From: Anaerolineales bacterium
GTDB lineage: Bacteria; Chloroflexota; Anaerolineae; Anaerolineales; UBA6663
Length of the DNA: 13,398 nucleotides
Reading direction: 5' to 3'
Assembly: GCA_016789245.1 (NCBI GenBank)
Contig: JAEURM010000027.1
Span: 1 to 13,398, forward strand
Shown here: positions 4,109-13,166 of the stretch, piece after piece
Numbering within the stretch: the first letter of the stretch is position 1
Layout: each line of letters begins with the position of its first letter
Notes under the pieces: model-generated
What the model was told of the DNA's origin: nothing
What the model saw: the letters and a program-made list of their open reading frames with translations, nothing else
Databases searched by the model: none
Translations under genes and position numbers: made by a program

Positions 4109-4137
4109 GCCTTTTAACTTGCTTTGAAAGGCTCATG

Positions 4138-5382
4138 ATGTTTAAGACCCTGCTCAAATTAATGGCGCTGGGTGCGGTGGCCACGGTGGCCCTCACTGGG
4201 TGTGTATCCTTCACGCCAGTGGCCGCACCTACGCCAACGCCGTTGCCTCCCACAGCCACGCGCATTCCGCCCACCGCCGCCCCCACCGTTGCACCCACCA
4301 CCGCCCCCGGCGGCCCAGATTCACTCTTCCCGCCCATCACTGAGGCTGAATGGCAAGTTGGCCCGGCCAACGCCCGCGTGACGGTGATTGAATATAGCGA
4401 TTTTCAGTGACCGTTCTGCAAAAAAATTGCGCCCGTGTTGGCGCAACTCGTTGAGAAATACCCAAATGATGTACGTTTAGTGTTCCGCCACTTCCCTTTA
4501 CCCATTCATGATAAGGCCATACTGGCCGCCGAAGCTACTGAGGCCGCCGGTGCGCAAGGCAAGTTTTGGGAATTTCATGATTTGCTGTTTGAGCGGCAGG
4601 AGGAATGGTCAGTAATTTCGCCCGCCGATTTCCGTAAACAGCTAGATGCGTATGCGCAGGAAATGGAATTGAACGTGGAGCAGTTCGGCGCGGATGTGGA
4701 TGGCGGGACGTTCAAAGCTAAAGTAGCCACGGCGCTAGAATCGGCCAGCACCATTGGCGGTCAAGGCTTGCCGTACACCCCTTTTATCCTGATTAATGAC
4801 CAACCCTTAGACGGCAACACACCCCAAGAGTTTTGGGTGTTTGATGCCATTGTGCAATTAGAGTTGTTGAAAGACCGCCAATTTGCACGGGCCGAACAAG
4901 TGATTGACCCGCTGAAGCAATACACCGCCACGCTTAAAACCACTAAAGGCGATGTGGTGATTGAACTGTACGCCGAGCAAACGCCACTCACCGTGAACAG
5001 TTTTGTATTCTTAGCGCAACAGGGCTGGTTTGATAACGTACAATTTCATCGTGTTCTACCGGGCTTTGTGGCGCAATCGGGAGACCCCACCGGCACTGGC
5101 TTTGGTGGGCCGGGCTACTACGTGAAGAATGAAGTTCTGCCCGAACTCACGTTTGACTCTGCTGGTGTGCTGGGCATGGCCAACTCTGGCCCGGATACTA
5201 ACGGCAGTCAGTTTTTCATCACTTACGCGGCCACGCCCAGCTTAGATGGTAAGTACACCGTGTTTGGCCGCGTGTTGGAGGGCATGGAGGTGGTGAATCT
5301 GCTCACCCCGCGTGACCCCGCCGTTAACCCTAACGCGCCAGAAGGCGATAAAATTTTGACTGTGATTATTGAAGAGAAATAA
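4138..5382 (+). CDS. Lipoprotein selenoprotein: DsbA-like thioredoxin domain (Sec-Pro-Phe-Cys) fused to cyclophilin
   Basis: Read as one gene with TGA 4408-4410 decoded as selenocysteine, it gives 414 residues. Upstream and downstream segments are in the same frame, and the protein continues without loss: EYSDFQ-U-PFCKKIAPVL, where the family has Cys at U. Order: signal peptide with lipobox LTGC (Cys22); Thr/Pro-rich linker (about 27-60); DsbA/Thioredoxin_4-like domain (about 71-250) with U91, C94 and a likely cis-Pro at P215; cyclophilin domain (261-414) keeping R305, F310 and Q313. Other than Cys22, C94 is the only cysteine. Predicted role: thiol-disulfide exchange plus prolyl isomerisation outside the membrane. 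The cyclophilin has Ser368 and Tyr373 where human CypA has Trp121 and His126. ATG 4138 is preferred over ATG 4135 for its 6-nt spacing from GAAAGG. An automatic annotator would split it into 4135-4410 and 4435-5382. The alternatives are a nonsense mutation or a sequencing error. Confidence 0.85.
4427..4446 (+). promoter_or_regulatory. Candidate bacterial SECIS hairpin
   Basis: TTGCGCC (4427-4433) pairs perfectly with GGCGCAA (4440-4446), leaving the loop CGTGTT (4434-4439). The loop begins 23 nt after the TGA. The published bacterial SECIS model asks for a small apical loop with a G in its first two positions, about 16-37 nt after the UGA; here G4435 is the second loop base. The hairpin lies inside the coding sequence (codons for IAPVLAQ), as bacterial SECIS elements must. 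The base after TGA is C, a context known to be leaky for termination. SelB binding is inferred, not shown. Confidence 0.75.
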
Positions 5383-5384
5383 GC

Positions 5385-5442
5385 CGTAATGCGTAAAACG
5401 TAAAGCGTAATTGCCATTCACGTTTCACGTTTTACGTTTCGC
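5385..5442. repeat. Imperfect inverted repeat (cgtaaaacgt type)
   Basis: The gap between the two cyclophilin genes is filled by a microrepeat of cgtaa/cgttt words. The perfect core is cgtaaaacgt (5392-5401) against acgttttacg (5427-5436), and pairing continues imperfectly to both sides. The loop is around ttgccatt. No T-tract follows, so the two genes may still be read as one transcript. Confidence 0.75.
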
Positions 5443-5458
5443 GCTCACAACAAACACC

Positions 5459-6073
5459 ATGAAGTTCATTAGACTCTTAATCCTAACTGTAGTTGCCTTT
5501 GCCACTGCGTGTGCCCCCATCACCACCACGCCGGAAGCAAATGCGCCCGCCGCCGCCAGCCCCAAAGAGTGGGCCGAGCCACCGGCCATGGAGATTGACT
5601 CCAACAAGCAATACACGGCCACGTTAGACACTGCAAAAGGCAAAATTGTAATTGAGCTGTTTGCTAAAGAATCACCGCTGACGGTAAACAATTTTGTGTT
5701 TTTGGCGCGACAGGGCTTCTATAATGGCGTGACATTTCACCGCGTGCTCCCCGGTTTTATGGCGCAAGGCGGTGACCCGACTGGCACGGGCATGGGCGGG
5801 CCGGGCTATCAGTTCGGCGATGAAACCCAAAACGGCCTTTCGTTCAATGAGCCGGGCTTGCTGGCGATGGCGAACGCTGGGCCGGGCACTAACGGAAGCC
5901 AGTTCTTTATCACTTATGACGCCACTCCGTGGCTGGACGGCAAACACACCATTTTTGGCAAAGTAGTGAGCGGGTTAGAAGTGGCGCTCTCCCTAACGCC
6001 GCGTGACCCCAGCCAAGACCCAAACGCACCGGCGGGTGATGCGATTACGACGATTACGATTGAAGAGAAGTAA
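5459..6073 (+). CDS. Cyclophilin-type peptidyl-prolyl cis-trans isomerase, predicted lipoprotein
   Basis: Catalyses prolyl cis-trans isomerisation during protein folding, here predicted outside the cytoplasmic membrane. The 204-residue protein starts at ATG 5459 with a signal peptide ending FATAC (Cys18, a somewhat weak lipobox), then an Ala/Pro-rich linker, then the cyclophilin domain (51-204). Active-site residues matching human CypA are R95, F100, Q103, the Phe of GSQFFIT, W158 and H163 ([10 protein letters not shown]), so it should be active. Its domain is plainly a paralogue of the cyclophilin domain of the gene just upstream ([14 protein letters not shown], AQx[23 protein letters not shown] and TIEEK are shared), suggesting tandem duplication. 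A start at 5411 would translate the repeat and remove the signal peptide from the N-terminus, so it is rejected. No Shine-Dalgarno sequence is visible. A strong terminator follows. Confidence 0.93.
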
Positions 6074-8916: not shown

Positions 8917-9026
8917 ACTGAAGGGCGCGGGCTGACGAGCATTTCAAGACCGTCTTCATTACCCGTGTGGTGCACTCTTCCACGGCACGCCAACGCTACT
9001 TAATTCGTCTTACCCTGCAACTCAAG

Positions 9027-12000
9027 ATGCGTTCCTTATTTACGCGCTTCCAAGCTGATTTAGCCCTTGCGGCTTTGCTGTTCATTCTGCCGCTGATTTT
9101 GTTCTGGCAAGTAACGGTGGGTGGGCGCACCCTCATCCCCGGTGATAACCTAACGCTGTTTGAGCCGTGGAAAAGCGCCGCTGTTGAGTTAGGCGTGAGT
9201 GGCCCGCCCCACAATGATTTAGTTTCTGATTTAGTTTTAGAAAACTATCTGTGGAAAAAATTCACCATTGAGTCCGCGCAAGGCGGCGAAATTCCGTTGT
9301 GGAATCCGCACTTGTTCACGGGCGTGCCTTTCCTCGCCGCTGGGCAACACTCCGCGCTATATCCGTTCTCAATTCTGTATTACGTTTTACCCCTTTCGTT
9401 GGCTTACGGCTGGTTTACGGTTTCCCAACTGTGGCTGGCGGGCGTGCTGATGTATGTGTTCTTGCGCGTGCTAGGCCTGCACCGCTACAGCGCCGTGTTT
9501 GGGGCGGTGCTGTATGAGTTGTGCGGCTTTATGACGGCTAGCGTGGTTTTTCAGATGATTATCGCGGCTGCGGCGTGGTTGCCGTTGGTGCTCACCAGCA
9601 TTGAGCTGATTGCGCGCCAACAACCCGCGCTCGGCGGGCGGCCCGCCACTGTGCCGTGGGTAGCGCTGGGCGCCGTTGGCGTGGGCATGCAACTGTTGGC
9701 CGGCCACGTAGAAATCACGTATTACACGCTCATGGTTTCCGGCGCGTTTGCGCTGTGGCGGCTAGCCGTTGTAAGGGCGAATGGCCGTCCGCCCTTACGC
9801 GTCATATTTCGCCGGGCCATTGCCATGCTAGCTGTACCGCTATTGGGCGTGGCCTTAGGCGCAGTGCAATTTGTGCCGCTGTATGAATTGGCCAGCAACA
9901 GCTTCCGCACGGGCCGCGCCACGTTTGATGAAATTCGCGGTTGGGCCTTTCCGCTCCGGCACGCGCTGATTTATCTCATCCCTAATTTCTACGGCTCACC
10001 CGCCCACCACAACTATTTGGATTTGTTCAGTGGGCAGTGGCAGGCCGCGCCCCTCAACAATCAAACTATTTTCTGGGGCATCAAAAACTACGTGGAAGGC
10101 GCAACCTATCTTGGCGTTTTACCGCTCCTACTCGCCCCGCTCGCCGTTCTAAACTGGTGGCGCTCACGTTCACCCAATCACTCAATCACTCAATCACCTG
10201 TATTTTTCTTTTCCCTGCTTTCCATTTTTGCTTTGCTTTTTGCTTTCGGCTCCCCACTCTACGCCCTCATCTTCTGGCTTCCCGGCATCAGCCAGTTGCA
10301 CTCACCGTTCCGTTGGGTGTGGCCGCTGGCACTAAGCGTGGCCGTGTTGGCGGCCTACGGGCTGGAGTATTTAGAAAACAGGGCATCTAATACAGAACGC
10401 CGAAAGAGAGCTACCCGCCGTTGGGGATTGGTGGAAATTTTGGCGTGGGGCGCGATGGGCGGCGGCGTGCTAACGCTGTTGGCTTTGAGCTTGGCGTGGT
10501 GGCAGTTTGCGCGGCTAGAAAATTTCTTCAACCGTTTGGTGCCAGAGTTGGCGCTGGCCAGCCAAGCGTTTAATAGCGGCGCGATGTTCTTCTCTTACAC
10601 CGCGCCGTGGGCCGCACTGTTTGCCGCTACGCTGTTGGCTTCCGGCGCGGTTCTGCGGCTGAGCCAAAGCTCATTCACCATTTTAGGCCGGCCCGCGTGG
10701 AAGGCGGCGGCCATCGGTGTCCTCGCCGTTGATTTAATCATGACGATCTGGGGCTTCAATCCCGCTTCTGACCCGAAGCTATTAGAGTATGTTGCGCCCT
10801 CTGCGAAGTTTTTACAGCAAGATGCAAGTTTGTGGCGCTACACCAGTTTTGACCCAACGGGCCAGAAACCGTACAACGCCAATGTGGGCTGGTATTACAA
10901 CTTCCAAGATGTGCGCGGCTATGACTCACTCTTTACGCGCCAATACGCCGATTACATGAAGTTGATTAATCCGCAGTATGAGTTGGATTTCAACCGCATT
11001 GCGCCGCTGAGCGAGTGGGACGCGCTCAACTCTCCATTGCTAGATTTGCTCAATGTGAAATATGTTGTGAGCGTGGTGGAAATTCCCAATAACAAATACA
11101 CGCTGGTATTTGATGGCGAAGTAAAAATTTACCGCAACGAAGCTGTGATGCCGCGCGCGTATACTCTGCCGCAAACGGCTACCTTGGCCGTGGATGATTT
11201 TGCCCAAGCCGTTCAGCAGTTCAACCCGCGCGAGTACGCGATGGTAGCGCCGCCAGATGCGGGTGGCGTGCAATTTGCTCTGCCAGCCGCCTACGCAGAA
11301 GCCACAGTTACTTCCTATCAAAACAACACCGTGTTTGTGGATGCGGCCCCGGCGGAGCCAAGCTGGCTGATTTTGCTGGATGCGTATGACGCGGGCTGGA
11401 AGGCGTACGTGCGCGAAATTGGCGCGGCGGATAACACCGAAAAGGAAGTGCCGCTGGTGCGCATAAACGGCAACTTTCGCGGTGTACGGCTAGAAGCGGG
11501 TGAATGGACGGTGCGCTTCCGGTACACGCCGGTGAGTGTGCGGCTGGGCGGCATCATCTCTTTGCTCACTGGCATCACGTTAGTTTTCTTTTTAGGTGTG
11601 TGGCTGTGGCGTTACTTCTATCAAGAAAGCAAGATAGACAGCACCGCCCGCCGCATTGCTAAGAACGCGCTCGCGCCGCTGGCCCTTAACCTAATGAACC
11701 GCGCCATTGATATGATTTTTGCCGCCTTCATGGCGCGCGTGCTTGGCCCCGAAGATATGGGCAAGTATTACTACGCCATCGTCATCTTTGGCTGGTTTGA
11801 AATCATTAGCAACTATGGGCTGAACACGTTTCTCACGCGTGAAGTGAGCCGTGACCGCGCCCACGCCGGACGGTATCTCATCAACACCACCGTTCTGCGG
11901 CTGTGGCTGGGCTTTGCGTTTATCCCAGCGTTGGCGGGCATTCTTGGGCTGTTCTTCTTTGCGCCCGCGTTGGGCTTTGCTGTGGACGCACTCACCACTG

Positions 12001-13166
12001 ATGTGCTGTGGGCCATCGGCTTGCTCGTGTTGGCGCAAGCGCCCGCCACCATTTCTATGGGCCTCAGTGCCTTGTTTTACGCGTTTGAAAAAGCAGAATA
12101 TCCAGCGGCGGTGGCCACGCTTACCACGTTGGTAAAAGTGGGCTTGGGCACAGTGGCGCTGATTTTGGGTTACGGCTTTGTGGGCTTGGCAGGCGCCAGC
12201 ATTCTGGTGAATGTGGTGACGTTGGCCGTGTTGGGTTTGTTAGCATGGCGCGTGTTGGGCGGCGCGGCGTTGGTGGGCATGGCCCCGTCTGCCGCCTCGT
12301 CCCCGTCCAATATTGATTGGCCGCTACAAAAATCCGCCCTGCGTGAATCATTTCCGCTGATGCTGAATAACTTGTTGGCCACGTTGTTCTTTAAAGTAGA
12401 TGTAACTCTGCTCAAGCCCATTCGCGGCGCAACGGAAGTGGGTTGGTACAGTGTGGGCTACAAATATGTGGATGCTTTCAACATTGTGCCCTCGCTCTTC
12501 ACCTTTGCGCTCTTCCCCCTGCTCTCCCGCCAAGCCACGCAAAAAGAGCAACATGAAACTCTGCGCTACACCTACGGCTTCGCCATCAAACTGCTCACCA
12601 TTTTAGTTTTGCCGCTGGCCGTGGCCACCACCTTCTTAGCAGAATTAATGGTGGGCTTGCTCGGCGGCGCGGAATATCTGCCGTACGGCGCTATCGCCCT
12701 CGTCATCTTAGCTTGGTCAATGCCGTTCGGCTGGCTGAACAGCGTGACGAATTACGTGTTGATAGCGGTGGGGCAACAGCGCGGCCTTACGCGGGCGTTT
12801 GCAGTTTCAGTGGTGTTCAACGTGGTGCTCAATCTTATCTTTTTGCCCATGTACGGTTTTGTGGCCGCCGCCGCCATCACCATTGCCTCAGAATTTTTTG
12901 AAGGGCTGGCCTTTTACTACTACGTTCACAAACACGTGGGCCGCGTGCCGTGGCTTAAGATGCTGTGGCGGCCATGGCTGTGCGCGGGTGGAATGGCGCT
13001 GGTGATGTACTTGCTTTGGCCCGTAAACGGCTTGCTGGCTTTGCTAGCTTCCAGCGGCGCGTATTTGGCTGGCATTATTTTGCTCGGTGCCTTCAACGCG
13101 GAAGAACGCGCCACGCTAGTGAGCATTTTGCCTAGTTCGGTGCGGCAGAGGTTGGCGGCGAATTGA
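9027..13166 (+). CDS. Fusion protein: YfhO-type GT-C glycosyltransferase plus Wzx/RfbX-type flippase
   Basis: One uninterrupted frame encodes 1379 residues. Residues 1-860 are YfhO-like: first membrane helix (about 9-28), the acidic first-loop motif PGDNLTLFEPW with D40, then LWNPHLFTGVPF (from L91), many transmembrane segments, and a soluble outer domain (about 585-830) ending in the YfhO hallmarks YDAGWKAYV (W791) and VRINGNFRGVRLEAGEWTV, then a last helix (about 838-860). Residues about 870-1379 are a polysaccharide-export flippase of the MOP superfamily: MARVLGPEDMGKYYYA, NYGLNTFLTREVSRD, and repeated hydrophobic helices to the end. YfhO-type enzymes transfer sugar from polyprenyl phosphate on the outer face; Wzx-type proteins flip lipid-linked sugars. 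Start: ATG 9027 gives a normal N-terminus; GTG 8967 would add 20 residues. Neither has a clear ribosome binding site. The gene ends with TGA. Confidence 0.88.
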   Translation: MRSLFTRFQADLALAALLFILPLILFWQVTVGGRTLIPGDNLTLFEPWKSAAVELGVSGPPHNDLVSDLVLENYLWKKFTIESAQGGEIPLWNPHLFTGVPFLAAGQHSALYPFSILYYVLPLSLAYGWFTVSQLWLAGVLMYVFLRVLGLHRYSAVFGAVLYELCGFMTASVVFQMIIAAAAWLPLVLTSIELIARQQPALGGRPATVPWVALGAVGVGMQLLAGHVEITYYTLMVSGAFALWRLAVVRANGRPPLRVIFRRAIAMLAVPLLGVALGAVQFVPLYELASNSFRTGRATFDEIRGWAFPLRHALIYLIPNFYGSPAHHNYLDLFSGQWQAAPLNNQTIFWGIKNYVEGATYLGVLPLLLAPLAVLNWWRSRSPNHSITQSPVFFFSLLSIFALLFAFGSPLYALIFWLPGISQLHSPFRWVWPLALSVAVLAAYGLEYLENRASNTERRKRATRRWGLVEILAWGAMGGGVLTLLALSLAWWQFARLENFFNRLVPELALASQAFNSGAMFFSYTAPWAALFAATLLASGAVLRLSQSSFTILGRPAWKAAAIGVLAVDLIMTIWGFNPASDPKLLEYVAPSAKFLQQDASLWRYTSFDPTGQKPYNANVGWYYNFQDVRGYDSLFTRQYADYMKLINPQYELDFNRIAPLSEWDALNSPLLDLLNVKYVVSVVEIPNNKYTLVFDGEVKIYRNEAVMPRAYTLPQTATLAVDDFAQAVQQFNPREYAMVAPPDAGGVQFALPAAYAEATVTSYQNNTVFVDAAPAEPSWLILLDAYDAGWKAYVREIGAADNTEKEVPLVRINGNFRGVRLEAGEWTVRFRYTPVSVRLGGIISLLTGITLVFFLGVWLWRYFYQESKIDSTARRIAKNALAPLALNLMNRAIDMIFAAFMARVLGPEDMGKYYYAIVIFGWFEIISNYGLNTFLTREVSRDRAHAGRYLINTTVLRLWLGFAFIPALAGILGLFFFAPALGFAVDALTTDVLWAIGLLVLAQAPATISMGLSALFYAFEKAEYPAAVATLTTLVKVGLGTVALILGYGFVGLAGASILVNVVTLAVLGLLAWRVLGGAALVGMAPSAASSPSNIDWPLQKSALRESFPLMLNNLLATLFFKVDVTLLKPIRGATEVGWYSVGYKYVDAFNIVPSLFTFALFPLLSRQATQKEQHETLRYTYGFAIKLLTILVLPLAVATTFLAELMVGLLGGAEYLPYGAIALVILAWSMPFGWLNSVTNYVLIAVGQQRGLTRAFAVSVVFNVVLNLIFLPMYGFVAAAAITIASEFFEGLAFYYYVHKHVGRVPWLKMLWRPWLCAGGMALVMYLLWPVNGLLALLASSGAYLAGIILLGAFNAEERATLVSILPSSVRQRLAAN
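9771..9798. repeat. 28-nt near-perfect palindrome inside the YfhO-flippase gene
   Basis: Arms gtaagggcg (9771-9779) and cgcccttac (9790-9798) pair perfectly, and the centre (aatggccgtc) is also mostly self-complementary. It encodes a short loop (VVRANGRPPL) between membrane segments without breaking the frame. It looks like an inserted dispersed palindrome and not like part of the family sequence. Confidence 0.75.
10175..10198 (+). repeat. Three tandem copies of an 8-bp unit inside the YfhO-flippase gene
   Basis: caatcact, caatcact and caatcacc follow each other without spacing. Because three 8-bp units make 24 bases, the frame is kept; they encode NHSITQSP in a loop between hydrophobic segments. 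Confidence 0.8.

Follow-up and report, generated by a model that had tools for sequence, protein, structure and literature searches.

The window analysed here, i.e. the whole stretch of 13,398 nucleotides, carries on its forward strand genes for a 6-phosphogluconolactonase, a 6-phosphogluconate dehydrogenase and a glucose-6-phosphate dehydrogenase, followed by a putatively recoded gene at 4135..5382. The only stop within this last frame before its end is a TGA at 4408..4410; when it is read as a residue, 415 amino acids remain open, and a predicted lipoprotein signal, a DsbA-like domain and a cyclophilin-type peptidyl-prolyl isomerase (PPIase) would be joined in one chain with selenocysteine (Sec, U) at position 92. 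A second, separate cyclophilin gene lies directly downstream on the same strand (5411..6073; PF00160, E 7.1e-45) and likely belongs to the same operon. Elsewhere in the window, positions 8967-13166 form one frame of 1399 aa that combines a YfhO-like membrane part (PF09586) with a part resembling polysaccharide flippases (PF01943), a fusion that looks unusual.

The predicted lipoprotein signal (4135..4203, forward strand) ends in the translation at Cys23 of the motif LTGC, which we take to be the lipobox of a lipoprotein-type signal; this Cys was found in 90% or more of a 50-sequence alignment. In the read-through translation, a Pro/Thr-rich linker leads from there to a DsbA-like thioredoxin-fold domain (residues 72-232, 4348..4830, forward strand). 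Scored with Cys in place of Sec, this domain was above the Pfam gathering cut-offs of both PF13462 (75.3 bits, cut-off 23.2) and PF01323 (56.1 bits, cut-off 25.6), and a match of the 415-aa protein to PF00085 was slightly below its Pfam cut-off (22.4, cut-off 23.5). The TGA, on the forward strand like the rest of the gene, occupies, as predicted Sec codon, the first position of a UxxC motif that appears as CPxC in relatives, and the second redox residue of this UPFC site, Cys95 (4417..4419, forward strand), was invariant across the 50 aligned sequences. In DsbA-like proteins of the Thioredoxin_4 type, the first long helix begins at the active site, and a cis-Pro is conserved. An AlphaFold2 model (50 aligned sequences, Cys replacing Sec, mean pLDDT 85.1) placed residue 92 directly before helix 93-108, and Pro216 was invariant in the alignment. 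The cyclophilin-type domain (residues 266-391, 4930..5307, forward strand; PF00160, E 3.5e-41, 141.5 bits for a gathering cut-off of 21.7) conserved Arg306 in at least 90% of the aligned sequences and Gln314 in all of them, presumably the catalytic Arg and Gln of cyclophilin PPIases. This half of the protein matched PDB cyclophilins both by sequence and by fold. The best 50 fold matches listed were nearly all cyclophilins or complexes, with no DsbA title among them, and the DsbA half is predicted from Pfam and from the secondary structure of the AlphaFold2 model. Modular variants were also recorded: P0009 has a DsbA piece together with two cyclophilin stretches in a single frame, and P0031 three cyclophilin stretches.

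The original prediction had described a frame running from EYSDFQ through the TGA directly into PFCKKIAPVL, followed by a perfect 7-bp stem, and both descriptions proved exact. The frame reads gattttcag TGA ccgttctgc at 4399-4419, and in the predicted SECIS hairpin (4427..4446, forward strand) the stem strand TTGCGCC (4427-4433) pairs with GGCGCAA (4440-4446) around the 6-nt loop CGTGTT (4434-4439), which starts at +24, i.e. 23 nt after the TGA, and has G as its second base. It had also been estimated that chance would produce such a stem in a few per cent of cases; rarity was borne out, the actual figure being somewhat lower. Under a synonymous-codon null that kept the protein (2000 draws), an equal hairpin at that place had p = 0.0075, and any 3-9 nt loop starting between +13 and +45 had p = 0.0085 (likewise 2000 draws). 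Parts of PMC13188914 give, for most bacterial SECIS elements, a spacing of 16-37 nt, a loop of 3-9 nt, a stem of 4-16 bp, a G within the first two loop bases and an MFE of at most -7.5. With a spacing of 23, a loop of 6, a stem of 7, G as loop base 2 and an MFE of -14, the window hairpin lies within these limits; a search of the window with Rfam gave no match at gathering thresholds. The 50-nt fold from the window TGA, to which this MFE belongs, had z = -1.98, with 8 of 200 dinucleotide shuffles folding as well, and the relatives L001, L002 and L007 gave z-scores of -0.34, +0.44 and -0.37, which are not significant. Because these z-scores were weak, the synonymous-codon null was adopted, for which Cys relatives served as control; folding against dinucleotide shuffles is the weaker evidence here and the strong evidence is comparative.

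Relatives were found by a scan of genome contigs and by a search of 396 genomes, which sample the class of G004, an Anaerolineales MAG. The codon at the residue-92 column was read in 91 sequences (the window, L001-L020 and L101-L170; three relatives, including one with TGA, occur in duplicate) and was TGA in 61, TGC in 17, TGT in seven and another codon in six, so that 85 of 91 displayed TGA, TGC or TGT at the redox column. The 90 relative loci thus comprised 60 with TGA and 24 with TGC or TGT, TAA and TAG being absent from the column, and those with TGA had one stop per aligned DsbA stretch. The core of the original prediction was a TGA in the position of the first Cys of the CxxC motif of a DsbA-like protein, and the alignment of this column had been named as one of the places where the prediction could fail; it did not fail there. 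A match was obtained in 360 of the 396 genomes. Among the 150 matches listed, 58 had a single TGA, 92 had no stop and none had TAA or TAG. All but one of the 58 were read; of these 57, 56 had the TGA at the column, the other one (L170) having TGT there; the 58th listed, on G004:C93, is by position the same gene as L007. The six sequences with Ser, Ala or Glu at the column (L006 and L010, L011, L012, L013 and L014) replace the first Cys of CxxC and display a new Cys four residues upstream (YCDFQ[SAE]xxC). They make up one side of a branch with support 94, and their redox partner seems to have moved rather than been lost.

Hairpins were compared among loci that differ in their downstream DNA: 57 Sec loci, the window among them, 22 Cys loci and six others. 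Six loci had been dropped beforehand owing to identical downstream DNA, three as second copies of a gene already present (L004=L121, L003=L127, L005=L110) and three others that came from separate genomes. When the best hairpin was sought regardless of place, it reached p <= 0.05 under the synonymous null in 41 of 57 TGA loci, two of 22 Cys loci and none of the six others, leaving 16 Sec loci without such a hairpin. Two layouts were distinguished, by a score of at least 10 at two places: layout A (17 of 57 Sec loci), with a single hairpin, and layout B (36 of 57), with two in tandem. Since these classes were set after inspection of the data, the p-values and Sec counts per class are partly circular, with p <= 0.05 at the class's own place in 17/17 loci for layout A, 36/36 for the distal and 31/36 for the proximal hairpin of layout B. 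Cys relatives reached this level at the same places in 0/22, 0/22 and 1/22 cases, respectively. The proximal hairpin was scored at its best place within a range, and the null was searched identically. At +39, two of the six loci with neither Cys nor TGA had p <= 0.05, the mean score of that group being low (1.4). The fair contrast is the one given by the place-free counts together with the Cys group. Four Sec loci fitted neither layout (L128, L137, L159 and L169), two of which, L128 and L159, displayed a strong proximal hairpin with a GGC or GGA loop at +18 and lacked the distal one of layout B. We read these contrasts as pointing to a hairpin structure that was selected together with the UGA, and not with the protein.

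The loop of layout A, to which the window belongs, is of the CGUGYU-like type, with 6 nt starting at +24 (CGTGTT in nine loci, CGTGCT in five, CGTGGT in two and CGTGGC in one). Across the 17 sequences, four of seven pairs changed on both sides and stayed paired (19 cells), 91.6% of cells being able to pair. The covariation score of 0.429 exceeded all 500 shuffles (0.108 shuffled) and slid versions reached at most 0.130. Likewise, the stem was recovered as RNAalifold consensus, and the hairpin was present in the predicted 60-nt fold from the UGA in 15 of 17 loci.

SelB exceeded the cut-off in 314 of the 396 genomes. The proportion was 46 of 56 among sampled genomes with TGA at the column (82%) versus 268 of 340 among the rest (79%), which may include TGA matches beyond those listed; SelB presence is thus uninformative as a correlate of the TGA and serves as a consistency check only. 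Among the ten TGA genomes without SelB above the cut-off, SelA was found in seven and a tRNA-Sec with anticodon tca in three, i.e. eight genomes together. In one genome, G259 (L150, L172), a contig of 5.35 Mb carries the TGA gene, SelA and tRNA-Sec, and no SelB above the cut-off was found, for which an assembly fault, a masked stretch or a divergent SelB are candidate reasons. SelB, SelA and tRNA-Sec all remained without a match above the cut-off in G322. Of the three, G328 displayed no more than a partial SelB-like stretch below the cut-off (profile positions 178-578, 127.7 bits), although a TGA-bearing FdhA is present in it. The first relatives with TGA came from four genomes, all of which had SelB above the cut-off; three of them (G001, G002 and G004) have a tRNA-Sec with anticodon tca, the best tRNA-Sec match of the fourth, G003, being a tRNA-Ser among the 150 of 637 first-look candidates that were scored. 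Counting was restricted to tRNA genes with anticodon tca because Rfam matches to tRNA-Sec were unspecific: five of 14 control genomes had one above the cut-off. Those Rfam matches of about 45-50 bits that were checked (L100, L174-L182) were rejected as tRNA-Ser by ARAGORN. The window's own 6-phosphogluconate dehydrogenase had its best matches among the 396 genomes in G177 (73%), G252 and G059 (72% each). G252 and G177 have SelB and the Sec form of the DsbA gene (L162 and L119, respectively), and a search for SelB in G059 gave no match.

The basis in sequence consists of the open frame, the TGA/Cys column, the covarying hairpin and the Sec genes in genomes of relatives. Since TGA stands at the reactive-Cys column of relatives and a hairpin is kept after it in many of them, we consider it very likely that the TGA at 4408-4410 is decoded as Sec by SelB and tRNA-Sec, with the hairpin at 4427-4446 as predicted recognition site, and that a predicted lipoprotein of 415 residues with a DsbA-like UxxC site and a cyclophilin domain results. 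The host of the window would then possess the Sec machinery, and SelB, docked on the hairpin with its Sec-tRNA, would supply Sec at the UGA. The protein would be exported and lipid-anchored outside the membrane or at the cell surface, where UxxC may exchange or isomerise disulfides on secreted proteins, helping them to fold. The cyclophilin domain of the same chain could turn proline bonds in the same secreted clients.

That the TGA is a true stop of a pseudogene, ending a 91-residue fragment, with the downstream part left as a relic or translated from the GTG at 4435 alone, is highly improbable. Two fragments do result under the standard code, as had been foreseen, and the automatic gene call (P0005) starts at 4435. 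Such starts, 9-10 residues after the column, occur in 25 of 120 listed similar proteins, P0005 included, and are expected if a gene caller begins after a stop (of the others, 82 have Cys at the column, four have Ser, Ala or Asp, and nine are unaligned there). Yet a relic fits poorly with a TGA that recurs in relatives without TAA or TAG ever taking its place and with a single stop per aligned DsbA stretch, with a frame that is otherwise open over 415 aa and with a conserved hairpin; moreover, in the model a start at 4435 (residue 101) would remove strand 82-88 as well as the active site and would truncate helix 93-108. Just as improbable is a sequencing or assembly error that turned TGC or TGT into TGA in the window only. 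The nearest full-length relatives, P0002-P0004 (84, 82 and 80% identical over the alignment), have Cys at the column, which would suit such an error and which indicates that Sec is dispensable for the protein. However, P0006-P0008, listed under other contigs as protein records alone, share 92-93% identity with the window and are near-identical mutually; they are among the proteins that begin at the same point just past the TGA column, and the window hairpin is intact (p = 0.0075). Least credible of all is a reading of the TGA as another residue (e.g. Trp, code 4) or as ordinary read-through. In its favour, the frame would be open whenever a code assigns a residue to TGA; against it, the other identified genes of the window are uninterrupted under table 11, relatives lacking TGA have Cys in 24 of 30 cases, tRNA-Sec with anticodon tca occurs in relatives and the stem-loop covaries.

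In layout B, the loop of the distal hairpin starts at +39, i.e. 38 nt after the UGA, and consists of three nucleotides (GGT in 28 loci, GTT in four, GGA in two, GGC and GTC in one each). Covariation was observed in five of eight pairs of its stem, with a score of 0.414 versus 0.163 in shuffled and at most 0.160 in slid versions. The proximal hairpin varies in register and loop, 29 different loops being recorded in 36 loci; these start at +14 to +19, and the hairpin spans 15-23 nt. Both hairpins were present in the predicted 60-nt fold from the UGA in 32 of 36 loci. With the proximal hairpin subtracted, 30 of 36 loci have a spacing of 17 or 19 nt and the other six one of 15, 20, 21, 22 or 23 nt. 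FdhA offered a comparison within the same genomes: 25 TGA matches were found in 38 genomes carrying the DsbA gene as Sec, and in all 20 that were read (L197-L208, L210, L213, L219-L223 and L225) GGTCT followed from +19, a spacing of 18 nt, the stem being computed for nine loci. We take this element to be of the E. coli fdhF type. The 20 loci divide evenly, ten each, between genomes of layout A and of layout B. G301, which has both, is counted under A; its two TGA copies of the DsbA gene are L125 (layout B) and L143 (layout A). As FdhA keeps GGTCT in genomes with a CGUGYU loop in the DsbA gene, one SelB would need to accept both loops.

These data fit a proximal hairpin that would shorten the path to a distal SelB site. 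In the reading to which we give about an even chance, the SECIS of the 36 layout-B loci is bridged: the intervening hairpin folds away 15-23 nt and brings the GGU or GUU loop for SelB from 38 nt to an effective distance of about 18 nt, equal to that of FdhA, and lineages swap among this form, the single CGUGYU hairpin at 23 nt (as in the window) and a proximal GGN hairpin, the UGA staying fixed. It is possible, although we find it clearly less probable, that the proximal hairpin is itself the SelB site and the distal one an accessory. Such a role would suit the 17 of 36 proximal loops that attain the published minimum spacing of 16 nt, as well as L128 and L159 with their strong proximal hairpin; the variable register and diverse loops of the proximal hairpin argue against it, as do the distal loop, located at +39 in 36/36 loci (by class definition) and reading GGT in 28 of them, and the fact that RNAalifold finds the distal stem.

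A tree of 100 sequences, obtained by a quick method with the SECIS-coding part excluded and with 28 of 97 inner branches weakly supported, implies nine or more changes between Sec and Cys and four or more between layouts A and B (L117, L169 and L170, short or distant, and P0028 and P0035, in which the motif was not located, were left out). The window grouped with P0006 (truncated, Sec inferred) and P0002 (Cys). Where Cys forms lie within Sec groups (L103, L110/L114, L113/L126), the hairpins of the class were absent or weak remnants. Among the latter are a 5-bp stem at +39 in L126 (1837-1896, reverse strand) and a 6-bp stem at +23 in L103 (1954-2013, reverse strand), as if Sec had changed to Cys with the SECIS decaying. 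Judged from sequence, the family appears common in the sampled class, its members having probably changed SECIS layout as well as switched between Sec and Cys.

The original prediction, which was right that UxxC members are known among DsbA-like families, covered neither the cyclophilin domain nor the large Sec subfamily nor the second SECIS layout. Parts of PMC1088965 and PMC13188914 describe a DsbA-like protein form 1 (PF01323, UxxC), first from the Sargasso Sea, which shares with the window protein the DsbA-like domain and Sec in place of the first Cys of CxxC. A cyclophilin fusion of this form goes without mention in those parts, and in the text of PMC13188914 covered by a word search 'isomerase' occurs once (thiol-disulfide), 'anaerolin' and 'chloroflex' being absent. 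Sec-DsbA proteins with UxxC are thus already known, and their cyclophilin fusion and tandem SECIS hairpins were not found described in the open literature searched. The best NCBIfam match of the window protein was NF041057 (Rcas_1661 family thioredoxin-like (seleno)lipoprotein; 87.4 bits, E 1.1e-24), likewise a thioredoxin-like lipoprotein family with a Sec form and listed, in the part of PMC13188914 that holds its Table 1, as a DsbG-like protein with UxxC. Yet this score is far under the curated cut-off of 190, which leaves the window protein outside the family, and the 247-position model matches residues 25-232, the cyclophilin domain being uncovered. According to part of PMC4959059, Anaerolinea thermophila UNI-1 encodes a Sec elongation factor and has no dehydrogenase annotated with Sec.

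Our results would add a common group of selenoproteins that gene callers cut short, predicted lipoproteins combining a Sec disulfide site with a proline isomerase. For Anaerolineae-type genomes, many of which have SelB, they offer a candidate selenoprotein besides formate dehydrogenase. With respect to known SECIS elements, the FdhA hairpin of the same genomes shares its apical-loop GGU with 28 of 36 distal hairpins of layout B, but it is a single hairpin at a spacing of 18 nt, in contrast to the CGUGYU-like loop at 23 nt of layout A. The tandem hairpins raise the question of whether linear or folded distance matters to bacterial SelB. Compared with the bacterial SECIS model in the parts of PMC13188914 cited above, layout A of the window lies within each constraint, whereas the distal loop of layout B, in all 36 loci of the class, stands at 38 nt, one over the range of 16-37 nt and with an extra hairpin in between, and a search held strictly to that range would miss it.
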